Below are positions 14,218-30,076 of a stretch of 64,000 nt of DNA, piece by piece. Both the position numbers and the translations under genes were made by a program. Location: assembly GCA_023488905.1 (NCBI GenBank), contig JAMDCQ010000017.1:1-64000 (forward strand), read 5' to 3'. The number at the start of each line of letters is the position of its first letter. Position 1 is the first letter of the stretch. Source of the DNA: Candidatus Bathyarchaeota archaeon (GTDB taxonomy: Archaea > Thermoproteota > Bathyarchaeia > Bathyarchaeales > Bathycorpusculaceae). The notes beneath the pieces are model-generated. The model was not told the DNA's origin. It was given only the letters and a program-made list of their open reading frames with translations, and did not search any database.

Positions 14218-14604
14218 ATGAGCATAATCAGCCTATCCATCCCAAAACCCCTCCTAGAAAAAGTCGACGCCTACATAAAAGAACAAGGCTACGCAAACCG
14301 CTCCGAAATCGTCCGCCAAGCCCTAAGAGCATACCTCTCAGAAACCAAACACCTAGAAGAACTCAAAGGAAACATAACCGCCACCATAACCATAATCTAC
14401 CAAAAAGGCCACAGAACCGGACAAACCATCGACAACCAACACCACTTCAACAACGTAGTCTTAACTTTTCTACATACTCACATAGAGGAAGGTATCTGCA
14501 TCGAAGTCATCGTAGCCAAAGGCGACGCCCAAACCATGAAGGAATTCATTACCGCCCTAAGAGCAAACAGGCAGGTTTCAGAAGTTAAAGTCACCCTCCT
14601 CTAA
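14218..14604 (+). CDS. nikR: NikR-type nickel-responsive CopG regulator
   Basis: RHH N-terminus (SLSIPKPLLEKVDAYIKEQGYANRSEIVRQALR); HRTGQTIDNQHHFNN...HTHIEEGICIEVIVAKG. Confidence 0.9.
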   Translation: MSIISLSIPKPLLEKVDAYIKEQGYANRSEIVRQALRAYLSETKHLEELKGNITATITIIYQKGHRTGQTIDNQHHFNNVVLTFLHTHIEEGICIEVIVAKGDAQTMKEFITALRANRQVSEVKVTLL

Positions 14605-14695
14605 AGCAAGCACCAAGTTTAGCTGTTAAATCAAGCTCAGTCGAAAACCCTTCAAGAGTTATCCCTCTTTAACAGCAGATCAAAATTATTGGTCC

Positions 14696-14825
14696 CGATT
14701 CAGGAAAGCTCCACAACCAACCAGCAAACGCCCACAGCAACCAAACAAAAAACCGACGCCAAACCGCAATCTGCTGGTTGTTGTTCTGTATAGCAGGTTT
14801 TTCGCCAACAACTATAGAAAAAAGA
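14696..14825 (-). repeat. Repeat family B, copy 1
   Basis: Reverse complement TTTTTTCTATAGTTGTTGGCGAAAAACCTGCTATACAGAACAACAACCAGCAG..., similar to 18.6 and 36.5 kb. Confidence 0.65.
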
Positions 14826-14897
14826 ATTTTATCTATGTTCTTGACTAAGCATTAAACCGTTCTTAGGAATGTTAGAACACCAAAAGGGGCAAGGAAA

Positions 14898-15461
14898 TCA
14901 TTCGGGCGTTTTGCAAATGCGTTTTGCGTCGTCTTTAACGCCTTGCAATTGTTCGGCTGTGGGTTTACCCCTGAGGTCGCCTAGTCGGCCTTGCGTGTTG
15001 CTTTCTTTTGAACCGCGGAACTCACTTAGAACATACCATTCAGCTAAAACAGTGAAGCCTATGTGTTCAAAGTATTGTCCTATATCTTTACCCACCGGGG
15101 TAGCTTCAGCGATTCCTGTGTGTGGACCGGAATAGGTTACGAAAACTATGGCTTTTTTACCCCCGACTTTTGGGGCGCCAAGCCTGATTTTTCCGTTTTC
15201 TCGATAATAATTGAATTTTTTCTTTAGAAAATTCGTCATCTGCTCAGGCGGATGCCAAGAATGCGAAGGACAACCTACACAAATCAAGTCGTAATCAAAC
15301 CAGTCCAGGTTTTCGGCTTCCTCAGGCTTCTTGATGGTTACATGGAGGTTAGCTTCTTCTAAACCCAGCTTTATGGCGTTGGCTACTTTCTCTGTGTTAC
15401 CAGTTTTAGACCAGTAGATTATCAGTGCAGTTTCCATTTTTTTAAACTCGAAGGGTTTCAT
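14898..15461 (-). CDS. Flavodoxin family protein, copy 2
   Basis: Strongly similar throughout to 10642..11184. Confidence 0.85.
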   Translation of the reverse strand: MKPFEFKKMETALIIYWSKTGNTEKVANAIKLGLEEANLHVTIKKPEEAENLDWFDYDLICVGCPSHSWHPPEQMTNFLKKKFNYYRENGKIRLGAPKVGGKKAIVFVTYSGPHTGIAEATPVGKDIGQYFEHIGFTVLAEWYVLSEFRGSKESNTQGRLGDLRGKPTAEQLQGVKDDAKRICKTPE

Positions 15462-15648
15462 TAAATTGTTCGCCTGATTAATTTCAATAGGAAATGCTGT
15501 TTCTGCCGATTCATATGTATTTGCGCTTTAAATCGGGAAAGGCATGCGGATAGCAACAAAATTGTGCCATGCCGATTTTTGTCCTTTACAGGGAGAGGGG
15601 CCGCAGAGCAGGAGCGTAACACCAACGTTACCGACTGGAAACAGAAAG

Positions 15649-16437
15649 CTAAGCGGATTTCTTCAGCAACAACTCGCAAATGCTATCAATGGTCTTAACT
15701 GCTTCGATTTCGTTGTTCTTCAGCGGAGTTACACCGAGCATGTCGGATTCGATGACTTTTTGGTCCCATGGAATGTAGGCGAGTACGTTGATTCCGTTTT
15801 GGTCGGCGAAGGTTTGGATGGCTTGTTTTTGGGCGTCGTTCATTACGCGGTTGCCGATGAGGTGGAGGTTCTTCATACCTGCCGCTGATGCGAGATCGTG
15901 GATGTGTTTGGCGATTTCCAACGACTTCAAATTGGAGTCTGCGACGATTAGGAGGTGGTCGACTTGTCTTGCGGTGCCTCTGCCGATGTGCTCTACGCCT
16001 GCTTCGAGGTCTAAGACGACGGCTTCGTTGCGTTCCACAACAAGGTGCCGTAGCAATGCGCGGATGACGGCGGTTGGTGCACACATGCAGCCTGCGCCCA
16101 TCGATTGCACGGTACCCATGACGATGAGGTTTGCGCCCAGCGGGGTTGGTACCGAGTACTGTTTGACTATGTCGTCTACTGAGAAGTTGAGGTTGTAGAC
16201 ATGTGAGTAGCCTGTGCTTGTTTTTGACTCTACAAGCGGCTTATTTTCTGAAATGGGCACTATTTTACGGGTTTCTTCAGCTGAAAGACCCAGAGTTAAG
16301 CCCAGATTCGGTGAAGAATCCGCATCTATAGCTATAGTCTTCAAATTCCTCTCAGCGAAACCTCTGGCTAATCCGCCCGCGATGAGGGTTTTGCCTACTC
16401 CGCCTTTACCAGCAACAGCAACCTTCATAATAATCAC
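15649..16437 (-). CDS. CooC-like nucleotide-binding maturation ATPase, second copy
   Basis: MKVAVAGKGGVGKTLIAGGLARGFAE, CMCAPTAVIRALL, LDLEAGVEHIGRGTARQVD. Confidence 0.87.
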   Translation of the reverse strand: MIIMKVAVAGKGGVGKTLIAGGLARGFAERNLKTIAIDADSSPNLGLTLGLSAEETRKIVPISENKPLVESKTSTGYSHVYNLNFSVDDIVKQYSVPTPLGANLIVMGTVQSMGAGCMCAPTAVIRALLRHLVVERNEAVVLDLEAGVEHIGRGTARQVDHLLIVADSNLKSLEIAKHIHDLASAAGMKNLHLIGNRVMNDAQKQAIQTFADQNGINVLAYIPWDQKVIESDMLGVTPLKNNEIEAVKTIDSICELLLKKSA

Positions 16438-16548
16438 AAACTAAAGAGAAATTGCTTGCCAAATTAATTTACGTTTCTTATCGTTTGGGGGGTTTTCTTT
16501 ATTTTTTTGGTTTCTGCAGAGTTAGCCGAACTTTCGGGAACGCACCGG

Positions 16549-16590
16549 ACACCCCCTCTATAGGTGCAGTGCATAAGTTGGTTATTGGGA
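16549..16590 (+). repeat. Repeat family C, copy 1
   Basis: ACCCCCTCTATAGGTGCAGTGCATA motif, also at 29.29 kb. Confidence 0.55.
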
Positions 16591-16608
16591 TCAAAAACAT
16601 CTATAATG

Positions 16609-17142
16609 TCAAGAGCTTGTAGCAGGCGACTTTTCTTTGAAGTATTCGTCTGTTAGTTTCTTTACACGTTCATTTTGTAGTTTGCGTCTTTTCTTTCCCC
16701 GTACATCTATGGCAAGCATGAAAATGTAGGGCAACGACAGGTAGAAGGCAGCGAAGAATATGTTGCTAAACAGTTGCGTATAGGGGTTAGCCATTACTGT
16801 ATTTGGGTCTGCCAAGTTGAAGCCGTTCCCTGCAAGGATGTCGATTACGACGAAGCCCATCAGGGTTAAGGTTAAACAGGCAAGGAACTGCACAAAAACA
16901 CTTCGTTCTTTGCCCAGAATGAGGCTTGGAATAATCGAGGATAATACGAATACCCAGGCGAAAGCGTAGACGAAGATAACCATGTCGATTCTGGAAGCCA
17001 ACCACAAACCCAGAACGGGAACATAGACTGCTAAAGAATCAACAACGGTTGTTACTGCTGTCTGTGTGAAGATTTGGTAGCTCACCATAAGAGCCCAAGC
17101 TACTGACAGATATGCGGGAGTTAGCAGTGCAGCTTTAACCAA
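16609..17142 (-). CDS. Membrane protein, unknown function
   Basis: Several transmembrane segments. Confidence 0.6.
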   Translation of the reverse strand: MVKAALLTPAYLSVAWALMVSYQIFTQTAVTTVVDSLAVYVPVLGLWLASRIDMVIFVYAFAWVFVLSSIIPSLILGKERSVFVQFLACLTLTLMGFVVIDILAGNGFNLADPNTVMANPYTQLFSNIFFAAFYLSLPYIFMLAIDVRGKKRRKLQNERVKKLTDEYFKEKSPATSS

Positions 17143-17217
17143 TCAAGCCACCCATTATTGTACAATTGTAAGGTAATTCACTATATTTAACCTGTTTCTT
17201 AATAGATTTTATGCAAT

Positions 17218-17568
17218 TCAATGTTGAACAGACGTACATCTGATACTATGAGGTAACGCCGCGACATTGAAAAGATCAACCGATGCGTTAGCCTTAAAGA
17301 CCTTCTCATGCCCCACCTTCTGCTTCGACACCGCACCCATAAGGCAGAGTTCATTTAGGTTTTTGCTTTCAAACGCGCGGCATCGCTGCGTTATCCGGCT
17401 GACTTGTGTGGCTGTTCCGGACCCGATTTTCTGCAACGCCAGCAAGGTTGGCAAAAGACGACTTGACACTTGAATCTGAACCTGCGGCATCTGGCTAATT
17501 TTGGCGTCGATACATTCTATTTGCTTAACCAGTTTGGCTAAGGTTGCTCTAAGTTCAACGTCGTTCAT
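17218..17568 (-). CDS. Winged-helix protein (MarR-like)
   Basis: LLPTLLALQKIGSGTATQVSRITQRCRAFESKNLNELCLMGAVSKQ. Confidence 0.55.
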   Translation of the reverse strand: MNDVELRATLAKLVKQIECIDAKISQMPQVQIQVSSRLLPTLLALQKIGSGTATQVSRITQRCRAFESKNLNELCLMGAVSKQKVGHEKVFKANASVDLFNVAALPHSIRCTSVQH

Positions 17569-17762
17569 TTTATCCCTCTTGGATTTATTTTAAAAATGTG
17601 TTAACGCCTTGTTTGTCTATTGGGTTCGTTTTCAATATAAATTTTGTGCATACTATTGGCACCATATAGACACCGAAAAGCACCCTTTTGGTATATTTGT
17701 GTGGCTCACATGATGGACAACACCTAAGAAGCCTCACAAGTTAGTGCCAATAGAGGTGAACT

Positions 17763-18308
17763 TTGGAATTGAAGGTATTCTGGGCAGGCCTTTGTACAGC
17801 CATACTTTTGGGCGCAGTTGCGACCGGCACCTATGGGGTCCTCAACATCACCAAAACAATATCCTCCAGCGGCACCGTCTCCACCATTAACGTGGAAGTT
17901 TACAGTGACAGCGCATGCACACAAACAGCAACAAACATAAACTGGGGCAATCTCTCACCGGGAACCTCAGCAACCTACACACTCTACATTAAAAACACAG
18001 GTAACACCGCGGAAACATTGAGTATGGCAACAAACAATTGGTCGCCCCAGACAGTTTCACAGTACATAACGATAACTTGGAACCGCAACAATGCAGTGTT
18101 AGAGGCAAATCAGATGCTGCAGGCAACCCTAACGTTGACTGTTTCCTCCTTCATAGACAATAGCATAACGGCCTTTAGCAACCAAATCATCATTTCGGGC
18201 ACCATAGCACCAGCGCCCATTTCTGCAGTCATATGCTTTCTTTGTCAGCGTAAGCTAACTGACACTTTTTACAGTAGCTTTTTTAGTAGCCAGATTGTTT
18301 TTTGTTAG
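17763..18308 (+). CDS. Secreted/anchored protein (camelysin/TasA-like signal region)
   Basis: N-terminal hydrophobic signal, then GTYGVLNITKTISSSGTVSTINVEVYSDSACTQ. Confidence 0.55.
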   Translation: MELKVFWAGLCTAILLGAVATGTYGVLNITKTISSSGTVSTINVEVYSDSACTQTATNINWGNLSPGTSATYTLYIKNTGNTAETLSMATNNWSPQTVSQYITITWNRNNAVLEANQMLQATLTLTVSSFIDNSITAFSNQIIISGTIAPAPISAVICFLCQRKLTDTFYSSFFSSQIVFC

Positions 18309-18333
18309 CTTAACTGCAGACAAGGACCTATCC

Positions 18334-18546
18334 GTGAAATTAAACTCGAAATATGCTGGTGCCCTCACAACAGTCCTTATGGTGATAGTGATGGCTACGA
18401 CTATGACCTTCACAATGACCTCCGTTATGACGGGTTGGACAGCGGGTTTCGCAGAAAGATTCGCAACAGGATGGCTAATCGGAGTCGCGGTAGGTTTACC
18501 AACGGGTCTGCTTTTTGTTCCCCTGATTAAGACGGCTAGTTTGTAA
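18334..18546 (+). CDS. Two-TM protein, DUF2798-like
   Basis: GTG start; LMVIVMATTMTFTMTSVMTGWTAGFAERFATGWLIGVAVGLPTGLLFVP. Confidence 0.6.
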   Translation: MKLNSKYAGALTTVLMVIVMATTMTFTMTSVMTGWTAGFAERFATGWLIGVAVGLPTGLLFVPLIKTASL

Positions 18547-18576
18547 GGTCTGCTTACCCTGAGATAGGCGCTTTGT

Positions 18577-18722
18577 TTTTTCTATAGAAGTTGTTGGCGG
18601 AGAGTTGCTATACACAACAACAACCAACGGCTTGTTGTGGCGACTGCTTTTTTGGTTCAGGCTTAACTGATGTTTGCGCTCTGGTTGTGGCTGATTTCAC
18701 AAGCAGAACAGTCTGCAAACAG
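18577..18722 (+). repeat. Repeat family B, copy 2
   Basis: TTCTATAGAAGTTGTTGGCGGAGAGTTGCTATACACAACAACAACCA...CTGGTTGTGGCTGATTTCACAAGCAG. Confidence 0.65.
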
Positions 18723-18748
18723 AAACACCTTGTGATTAGTCGAAAAGT

Positions 18749-18825
18749 AATTGGTGTGGAGGGGGGATTTGAATCCACGAACCCCTGCGGGATAAGAGCC
18801 TTAGTCCTACGTCGTTGTCCATGCT
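18749..18825 (-). pseudogene. Truncated tRNA-Leu 3' fragment (attR-like)
   Basis: RC AGCATGGACAACGACGTAGGACTAAGGCTCTTATCCCGCAGGGGTTCGTGGATTCAAATCCCCCCTCCACACCAATT; about 8 differences over 78 nt from the tRNA-Leu at 19.5 kb; no 5' acceptor strand found. Confidence 0.85.
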
Positions 18826-18875
18826 ATACAGTTACAGATAGGAAATTTTAAATCTATAATTATAGTTATAGATAT

Positions 18876-19088
18876 TTGGTGGTTTATTTGGCAACAACAG
18901 TCCAGGTAGATGAAAAAACCCTTCAAATGCTCAACAAAGCAAAAAAAGAAATGAAAGCAAAAAGCCACAATGAAGTAATAAAAAAACTGCTTACTGAACA
19001 TAGAAAAACCCCCTGTTCCATGTTCGGCTCAAACCCAAAACTTGACTCCTTCACTGCGGAAGACGAAGCGGATTTCCATGAGTTGTAA
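18876..19088 (+). CDS. vapB: VapB-type antitoxin
   Basis: Small RHH-like N-terminus, DSFTAEDEADFHEL tail, overlaps vapC. Confidence 0.78.
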   Translation: MVVYLATTVQVDEKTLQMLNKAKKEMKAKSHNEVIKKLLTEHRKTPCSMFGSNPKLDSFTAEDEADFHEL

Positions 19089-19488
19089 CTACATCATCGA
19101 TGCTTATGCTTGGATAGAGTATTTCAAAGCTTCAAAACAGGGGGAAATTGCCAAAGAATTCATAGAAAACGAACACGCGATAACACCAACAATTGTTGTC
19201 TCCGAAATCAGCAGAAAACTAAGCCAGCAAATCCAACTCGGCAAAGAAACACGCGAAGGAAGCGCCAAACTCTTAGACTTTATTCGAGACACCACTAGGA
19301 TTGTTGACTTAGATTTTGAAACCGCCGCTGAAGTAGGCAAAATCATCCAAGAACTAAAAAGCCGAACAAAAGATTGGAGCTTGGCGGATTTAATTATTCT
19401 ATGCACTGCCCGCGGTTTGTCTGGAAAAGTCGTAACAGGAGATGAACACTTCCACAAGCTAAACGACACAATTTTTATCAAAGAATGA
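19078..19488 (+). CDS. vapC: PIN-domain VapC toxin
   Basis: IIDAYAWIEYFKAS...DWSLADLIILCTARGLSGKVVTGDEHF. The ATG at 19078 overlaps vapB. Confidence 0.88.
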   Translation: MSCNYIIDAYAWIEYFKASKQGEIAKEFIENEHAITPTIVVSEISRKLSQQIQLGKETREGSAKLLDFIRDTTRIVDLDFETAAEVGKIIQELKSRTKDWSLADLIILCTARGLSGKVVTGDEHFHKLNDTIFIKE

Positions 19489-19490
19489 AT

Positions 19491-19578
19491 TGGTGCGGAG
19501 GGTGGGATTTGAACCCACGAACCCCTGCGGGATAAGAGCCTCAGTCTTACGCCTTTGACCATGCTGGGCGACCTCCGC
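19491..19578 (-). tRNA. tRNA-Leu (anticodon GAG), CCA encoded
   Basis: RC GCGGAGGTCGCCCAGCATGGTCAAAGGCGTAAGACTGAGGCTCTTATCCCGCAGGGGTTCGTGGGTTCAAATCCCACCCTCCGCACCA; acceptor GCGGAGG/CCTCCGC, loop CTGAGGC, long variable arm. Confidence 0.95.
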
Positions 19579-19675
19579 CTAAACGCAACCCATTTGAGGC
19601 TTTGCGAAGATATAGAAACATCTAGCCCAAATAAAGGCTTTACCGTAAAAACCGCGACAAAAACAACAAAGGCAA

Positions 19676-20269
19676 TCAACTTTTTGTTTTAGACACCAGA
19701 AAGTAACCGTATTCAGCCAGCAAGTTTGGCAGGAACTTAACTCGGCGGTTATCAGTCTTGTAAAAAACCCGCTCTATAGTTACGCCCTTCTTTTTGCAGT
19801 AATCCTTGAAGTCGTTTAGGCTCAAGAAATGCAGGTTAGGTGTGTCGTACCACTGGTAGGGCAGCGAAACGGTGACGGGGACGCGTCCGCGGAAGAATAT
19901 GCTGGTGCGGGCTTTGTAGTGGGCGAAGTTGGGGATACCGACGATGACTTTTTTGCCGACTCGGAGGGCTTCTTGCAGCGCGAAGTCGGGTTTTTTGACC
20001 TGCTGTAGTGTCTGGTTGAGGATGACGTAGTCAAAGGAGTTGTCTGCGTATTCAGAGAGCCCCGTGTCAATGTCTTGCTGGAAAACACTAAGGCCTTCGG
20101 AGACGCATCGAATGATCGCGTGCTCATCAAGTTCTATACCCTGCGCACGGACATCTTTTTCTTTAGATAAGTAACCGATGAGTTCTCCGTCTCCGCAACC
20201 TAAGTCAAGCACTGAAGCGCCACTTTGAATCCAGTCTGCGAAGCTTCTAAAGTCAACGTTGTCAGCCAT
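19676..20269 (-). CDS. metW: Methionine biosynthesis protein MetW-like methyltransferase
   Basis: GASVLDLGCGDGELIGYLSKEK; DYVILNQTLQQVKKPDFALQEALRVGKKVIVGIPNFAHY; next to metX. Confidence 0.9.
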   Translation of the reverse strand: MADNVDFRSFADWIQSGASVLDLGCGDGELIGYLSKEKDVRAQGIELDEHAIIRCVSEGLSVFQQDIDTGLSEYADNSFDYVILNQTLQQVKKPDFALQEALRVGKKVIVGIPNFAHYKARTSIFFRGRVPVTVSLPYQWYDTPNLHFLSLNDFKDYCKKKGVTIERVFYKTDNRRVKFLPNLLAEYGYFLVSKTKS

Positions 20270-29700: not shown

Positions 29701-30076
29701 ACACGCTATAGATGCTTACGCATGGATAGAATACCTAAACGGCAGCACCAAAGGCAAAAAAGTCGCCCAGATATTAGAAGATAACAACGAAACCTACACC
29801 TGCGCCATAACCCTAGGCGAAGTCATAAGCAAAATCGCACGCATGAACCAAGACCCCAAACCCGCCTACGACGTCCTCTTAAGCAACTCACAAATAATCA
29901 CAGCCGACGAAGAACTCTCATACCAAGCCGGCCTCGTTCACTGCGAAATGAGAAAAACCCAGAAAGACTTCGGGTTAGCCGACGCCTACATTTTAGCAAC
30001 CGCCCGAAAGCTAAAAGCAAGAATTTTAACAGGCGACCCCCACTTCCAAAACATCAAAGAAGCCATACTAATCTAA
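29693..30076 (+). CDS. vapC: PIN-domain VapC toxin
   Basis: MTRHAIDAYAWIEYLNGS...KDFGLADAYILATARKLKARILTGDPHF; overlaps vapB. Confidence 0.9.
   Translation: MTRHAIDAYAWIEYLNGSTKGKKVAQILEDNNETYTCAITLGEVISKIARMNQDPKPAYDVLLSNSQIITADEELSYQAGLVHCEMRKTQKDFGLADAYILATARKLKARILTGDPHFQNIKEAILI

Follow-up and report, generated by a model that had tools for sequence, protein, structure and literature searches.

How toxin-antitoxin (TA) pairs spread unaided from genome to genome is a long-standing question, and a locus in an archaeal chromosome raises it in compact form. The window analysed here is the whole 64,000-nucleotide stretch of DNA, contig C9 of a metagenome-assembled genome (G000) whose relatives carry the label Candidatus Bathyarchaeota and are uncultured soil archaea. 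Within it a vapBC pair sits between an intact tRNA-Leu(GAG) gene and a displaced tRNA-Leu 3′ fragment (Table 1). The initial annotation proposed a minimal vapBC island, either a shrunken integrative element or a satellite moved by an integrase acting in trans, and we ask here which of these it is.

Table 1. Features of the vapBC locus in the 64-kb window
Feature	Coordinates	Strand	Details
Intact tRNA-Leu(GAG), with CCA	19491..19578	(-)	ARAGORN; Rfam RF00005 52.1 bits
Displaced tRNA-Leu 3′ fragment (attR)	18749..18825	(-)	tRNA positions 14-88 and the AATT after them
Cassette between tRNA and fragment	18826..19490		665 bp; match to the G003/G018 copies ends at the cassette
vapC, 136-aa PIN-domain toxin	19078..19488	(+)	PIN PF01850 E=2.6e-16
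vapB, 66-aa antitoxin	18888..19088	(+)	TTG start assigned from conservation; 11-nt overlap with vapC
Imperfect palindrome ATCTATAATTATAGTTATAGAT	18852..18873		upstream of vapB
metW	19679..20269	(-)	Pfam PF07021; conserved neighbour upstream of the tRNA, site marker in relatives

ARAGORN calls tRNA-Leu(GAG), CCA included, where it had been annotated, and makes no other tRNA call in the window. The fragment aligns to it on the same strand over 78 columns with seven mismatches and one gap (89.7% identity), matching the earlier count of eight differences in 78, and both share AATT after the CCA. The fragment lacks the 5′ acceptor strand, as proposed, and part of the D arm, most of which had been thought missing. 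A search of the 64 kb with a T-arm pattern gives exactly two matches, versus none in 100 shuffles, and tRNA and fragment, spaced 740 nt apart, form the only direct repeat family of at least 30 nt within positions 14400-20000. As had been noted, the interval holds vapB and vapC only, and no integrase is present among its genes or Pfam matches (18826-19490). The vapC stop codon (19486-19488) falls 2 nt short of the tRNA 3′ end. This is the geometry of insertion at a tRNA 3′ end, with the tRNA on one side and a same-strand fragment on the other; the initial annotation recognised it, and the pattern proved broader than it proposed. The tRNA gene corresponds to the attL side, and its own 3′ end would derive from the inserted unit.

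The genes are predicted to form a type II TA pair, based on the PIN domain, the acidic residues of VapC (D8, E43, D104 and D122, invariant across ten sequences) and the small overlapping upstream gene. VapB matches the VAPB_antitox and RHH Pfam models below their cut-offs, and vapB accompanies vapC in relatives too. The palindrome ATCTATAATTATAGTTATAGAT is a probable operator that would regulate the pair, and similar motifs of the form TATAACTATAGTTATAG are found upstream of most vapB relatives.

Linkage of metW to tRNA-Leu(GAG) is kept in G003, G009, G011, G014 and G016. G011 shares vapBC at this site, its fragment being decayed, and has 83% DNA identity to G000 up to the fragment. G016 has vapBC (VapB 86%, VapC 67%) and a decayed fragment as well, but its tRNA and vapC are 1.65 kb apart, with one membrane-protein ORF between them. 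Neither vapBC nor a fragment is found at the GAG sites beside metW in G003, G009 and G014. The DNA past the fragment differs among G000, G011 and G016, and because this downstream neighbourhood is rearranged, the GAG site yields only approximate empty sites; at tRNA-Leu(GAG), no two close genomes of which one has the cassette and the other lacks it were found to share downstream flanks. An inverted repeat of ~118 nt (71%; 14711-14826 and 18573-18690) brackets 3.8 kb beside the fragment in the window and may be an inversion marker, explaining the rearranged downstream order in relatives.

Judged by that level of identity to G011, and by the 90% identity of its fragment, the window cassette is old. 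Between G000 and G011 vapB has a dN/dS of 0.056 and vapC one of 0.053, values pointing to an operon kept by selection while the fragments that represent the attachment site decay. With the operon selected and its fragment decaying, the window cassette is probably no longer mobile. At the DNA level vapB is far more conserved than vapC between these genomes (93% versus 80%; dS 0.34 versus 1.63; compared against L100, L103, L104 and L105), contrary to what is usually expected of antitoxins.

Close VapC relatives (57-100% identity) occur in 10 genomes, and in 7 of these vapBC is tied to tRNA-Leu sequence, whether GAG, CAA, CAG-like or decayed copies. The vapC gene lies within about 2-7 nt of an intact tRNA at tRNA-Leu(GAG) in G000 and G011 and at an intron-bearing tRNA-Leu(CAA) in G024 (7 nt). 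The pair is flanked in G003 (contig C62) by two CAG/TAG-type tRNA-Leu 3′ ends, in one of which the contig terminates, and lies in G018 (C20) between decayed tRNA-Leu-like copies; in G087, from another genus, it adjoins a tRNA-Leu-like fragment. Wherever vapBC is tRNA-tied the orientation is constant, and vapC and the tRNA face each other 3′ end to 3′ end. G112, G110 and G073 have vapBC without an adjacent tRNA-Leu fragment, a tRNA in G110 being 7 kb away.

Homology between these copies is restricted to the cassette. The G003 and G018 copies share 678 bp at 89% identity within unrelated flanks, and the window matches them over 681-698 bp, again in the cassette only. The vapBC unit is near-constant in length at different tRNA genes (665-676 bp), and HicBA units measure about 500-540 bp. 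A ~0.67-kb unit that turns up behind one tRNA gene in one species and behind another in the next is suggestive of movement as a single piece, driven by a recombinase from elsewhere. Because the copies of this minimal unit lie at several tRNA-Leu genes and their flanks are unrelated, a non-autonomous unit is favoured over independent shrinkage; of the two origins first proposed, we thus prefer the satellite, with its movement in trans inferred.

Comparison with relatives, as the initial annotation had suggested, was more informative away from the GAG site. At tRNA-Leu(CAA) of G000 (L258, 3222-3350) the CCA runs into a flank that begins ACCTCA, and in G024 the CCA is followed by a ~676-bp vapBC unit, the last bases of which resemble a decayed tRNA end, and then by the flank seen in G000. 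This is a near-precise empty site. Empty sites are seen at tRNA-Leu(CAG) too, where the genes past the G013 and G005 fragments lie close behind the tRNA in G018, as do those of G013 in G029 and G006.

Among ~70 VapC loci of more distantly related archaea, almost none has a tRNA 3′ end directly beside it in this orientation, so the tRNA link is a property of this VapC subfamily and not of VapC generally. One exception (L112, 1501-2008) is found in G143, from a different family of the order, where a related VapC ends 47 nt from a convergent tRNA-Ala(TGC). The IMG/VR viral contigs contain no relative of this VapC, so no viral carrier was found.

To place the locus in context, 113 tRNA loci of the genus (71 Leu and 42 other) were surveyed in fetched stretches rather than whole genomes. 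These contain 26 tRNA fragments, every one of them downstream of its tRNA and on the tRNA strand. Were strand and side free to vary, the chance probability of this outcome would be about 5e-13. Fragments often begin near the anticodon loop (tRNA positions 26-46). By hand count, 11 of the 15 intervals shorter than ~1.15 kb contain a TA pair only (VapBC, HicBA, MNT-HEPN or RelE/ParE-like). Fragment-free tRNA flanks of 700 bp served as a control, and 2 of 80 had a TA match among the first 25 Pfam families listed (one PIN and one HicB), both being the cassettes of G024 and G000 themselves. The contrast between 11/15 and 2/80, counting control matches among the families listed, has a Fisher p of 1.2e-9, or 1.3e-6 minus four related cases, for short intervals that are a non-random sample and partly related by descent.

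TA-only intervals are found at several tRNA genes. HicBA occupies intervals of 605 bp at tRNA-Leu(CAG) in G013, 537 bp at tRNA-Thr(GGT) in G022 and 499 bp at tRNA-Arg(CCT) in G016, and an MNT-HEPN pair lies in a 771-bp interval at tRNA-Leu(CAG) in G005, followed by an interval with an RHH gene only. In G110 a short ORF and a ParE/RelE-like toxin fill 576 bp behind a tRNA that ARAGORN calls Ser yet which matches tRNA-Leu(CAA) at 85%. G018 (C20) has AbrB-VapC and RHH-VapBC pairs in tandem between tRNA-Leu fragments. The genome of the window also encodes a HicBA about 10 nt behind tRNA-Thr(GGT) (L298, contig C12, 2746-3300), next to a tRNA-Leu(TAG) that bears an intact integrase. This HicBA type recurs at tRNA-Thr(TGT) in G003, where the fragment is decayed (score 22 versus a shuffle maximum of 12), and at tRNA-Thr(GGT) in G013, where it is displaced by 1.28 kb. 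No tRNA-side fragment was found for the displaced cassettes of G016 and G013, which counts against simple tandem accretion because accretion would predict one.

Other intervals hold a helicase gene (G007 and G025), a CxxCxxCC protein (G013), a PQQ-like protein (G016) or a small membrane protein (G011). The helicase forms a fragment-bounded, single-gene cassette of ~2.6 kb behind tRNA-Leu(TAG) in both genomes (L096 and L272), with an integrase remnant next to it in G007. Among 69 tRNAs with flanks of about 4 kb from G112 and G061 (two other genera) and G048 (another family), three fragments and no TA-only cassette were found.

Tyrosine integrases, which could supply the recombination activity, are present in 32 of 32 genomes of the genus, and two kinds are encoded directly at tRNA-Leu genes. 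Larger tRNA-Leu elements that carry integrases also occur in the genus. The first kind (family A) is convergent with the tRNA; of the four loci read, three have it ending about 36-47 nt away and the fourth 110 nt away. G000 has an intact relative of this family at tRNA-Leu(TAG) (C12:1397-2278, 58% identity). The second starts 8 nt after tRNA-Leu(CAG) on the same strand (L247, L248 and L249) and may therefore rely on the tRNA promoter to be expressed. Both are candidates for acting on the cassettes. Decayed integrase ends adjoin some fragments in G007 and, read as remnants, show that larger elements shrink here as well.

We therefore read the window segment as a member of a class of non-autonomous, TA-only cassettes that integrate at tRNA genes and are moved by integrases in trans, and give this a probability of roughly 0.68. 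It draws on the geometry, the recurrence at several tRNAs, the empty sites, the cassette-only homology, the purifying selection and the integrases at tRNA-Leu genes; movement in trans, the responsible integrase, a circular intermediate and a role in addiction are its inferred parts. The unit would measure about 0.5-0.8 kb and comprise a TA operon (type II or MNT-HEPN) with its promoter/operator, together with a single attachment site derived from a tRNA. Acting in trans, a tyrosine integrase of a larger tRNA-using element would join this site to a tRNA gene. The cassette copy would replace the tRNA 3′ end, so that the tRNA stays whole and the old 3′ end is left as the far-side fragment. Later insertions would enter between the tRNA and older cassettes, pushing the older ones outward. 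After insertion, selection or addiction would retain the TA pair while the fragment decays.

Alternatively, each cassette could be the remnant of a larger integrative element that lost its integrase and other genes by deletion and kept the TA pair since its loss is harmful. The larger integrase-bearing elements at tRNA-Leu genes and the integrase ends beside the G007 fragments are consistent with this, CIME decay and tandem accretion are known from bacteria (PMC5704250), and Sulfolobus islandicus commonly has remnants of insertions at its tRNA genes (PMC3718332). However, unit length and ends are near-constant at different tRNA genes, homology between unrelated sites stops at the cassette, and independent losses would need to halt repeatedly at the same two edges. 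The gap between vapC and the tRNA leaves no space for an integrase remnant, no remnant genes were found in the cassette, and in the intact elements examined the attL-proximal gene is the integrase, not a TA gene. On balance we regard origin by decay as unlikely, while giving it some weight. CIMEs are by definition decayed ICEs/IMEs (PMC5704250), and they resemble the cassettes in keeping attL and attR, lacking integrase and transfer genes and occurring as tandem neighbours of other elements at a single tRNA gene. They differ in that here a uniform, TA-only unit of 0.5-0.8 kb recurs at different tRNA genes and is seemingly what moves. Outwardly, the window cassette would pass for a CIME, but the unit keeps one minimal size at unrelated sites, which argues for movement of the minimal unit itself.

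Spread without any integrase, by DNA uptake and homologous recombination or by gene conversion between near-identical 3′ halves of tRNA genes from one family, appears quite improbable. tRNA-Leu isoacceptors do have much of the 3′ half in common, vapBC copies are confined to tRNA-Leu genes and one HicBA lineage to tRNA-Thr genes, and the unequal conservation of vapB and vapC is a hint in the same direction. The shared stretches are, however, only about 25-75 nt long, and fragments often start where a particular class of tyrosine integrases crosses over. An old tandem tRNA duplication that trapped vapBC and descended vertically, which the initial annotation had set against its own proposal, would account for the orthologous copies at one site in G000 and G011 and for the vapBC and decayed fragment retained in G016, but has next to no probability, since its general validity is ruled out by the empty sites, including the metW-linked GAG sites with neither vapBC nor fragment and the one at tRNA-Leu(CAA), and by the vapBC unit at other tRNA genes.

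As non-autonomous units, the cassettes would by working principle be closest to dif modules and integron cassettes, with a tRNA gene as the site. The dif (pdif) modules of Acinetobacter plasmids are moved by the host XerCD, and some hold a TA pair only (add dif, 768 bp; PMC6449649). They are likewise small, bounded by tyrosine-recombinase sites and dependent on a recombinase encoded elsewhere; here the flanking sites are tRNA 3′ ends on an archaeal chromosome, and the recombinase would be an element integrase instead of XerCD. In archaeal integrons, TA proteins make up 10.5% of the functionally predicted cassette proteins (PMC9668308). Integron cassettes too consist of one operon and one recombination site, form arrays and frequently encode TA systems, whereas here the tRNA gene itself is the acceptor, many tRNA genes are used and the bounds are tRNA 3′ ends. 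As a tentative extension, which we hold to be possible, tRNA genes may serve as an integron-like acceptor platform at whose 3′ ends single-operon cassettes, mostly TA, are captured and stacked by integrases acting in trans.

The islands recorded by Islander share the intact tRNA, the displaced 3′ fragment in the correct orientation and, often, the anticodon-proximal fragment start; the database records an anticodon-centred crossover class for tRNA integrases, demands an integrase gene in the island and has size peaks at 13.6 and 39.9 kb (PMC4383910). The cassettes described here carry no integrase, the window cassette holding vapBC alone, and such cassettes escape notice because the standard island finder demands one. 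vapBC pairs are among the integrated genes of S. islandicus, and TA-only tRNA cassettes are not reported in the passages of that study consulted (PMC3718332). No earlier description of the pattern was found in open-licence literature. If our reading is correct, an operon plus an attachment site would be about the smallest possible site-specific mobile DNA and a direct vehicle for TA pairs without plasmid, phage or large island. With boundaries, empty sites and candidate integrases identified, the question becomes testable.

As TA systems, the VapBC, HicBA and MNT-HEPN pairs are like known ones in gene order, domains and PIN catalytic acidic residues, and only their genomic placement is unusual. 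The window also contains a second PIN-domain (VapC-like) gene 10 kb from the cassette (29702-30073), with 35% identity to the cassette VapC.
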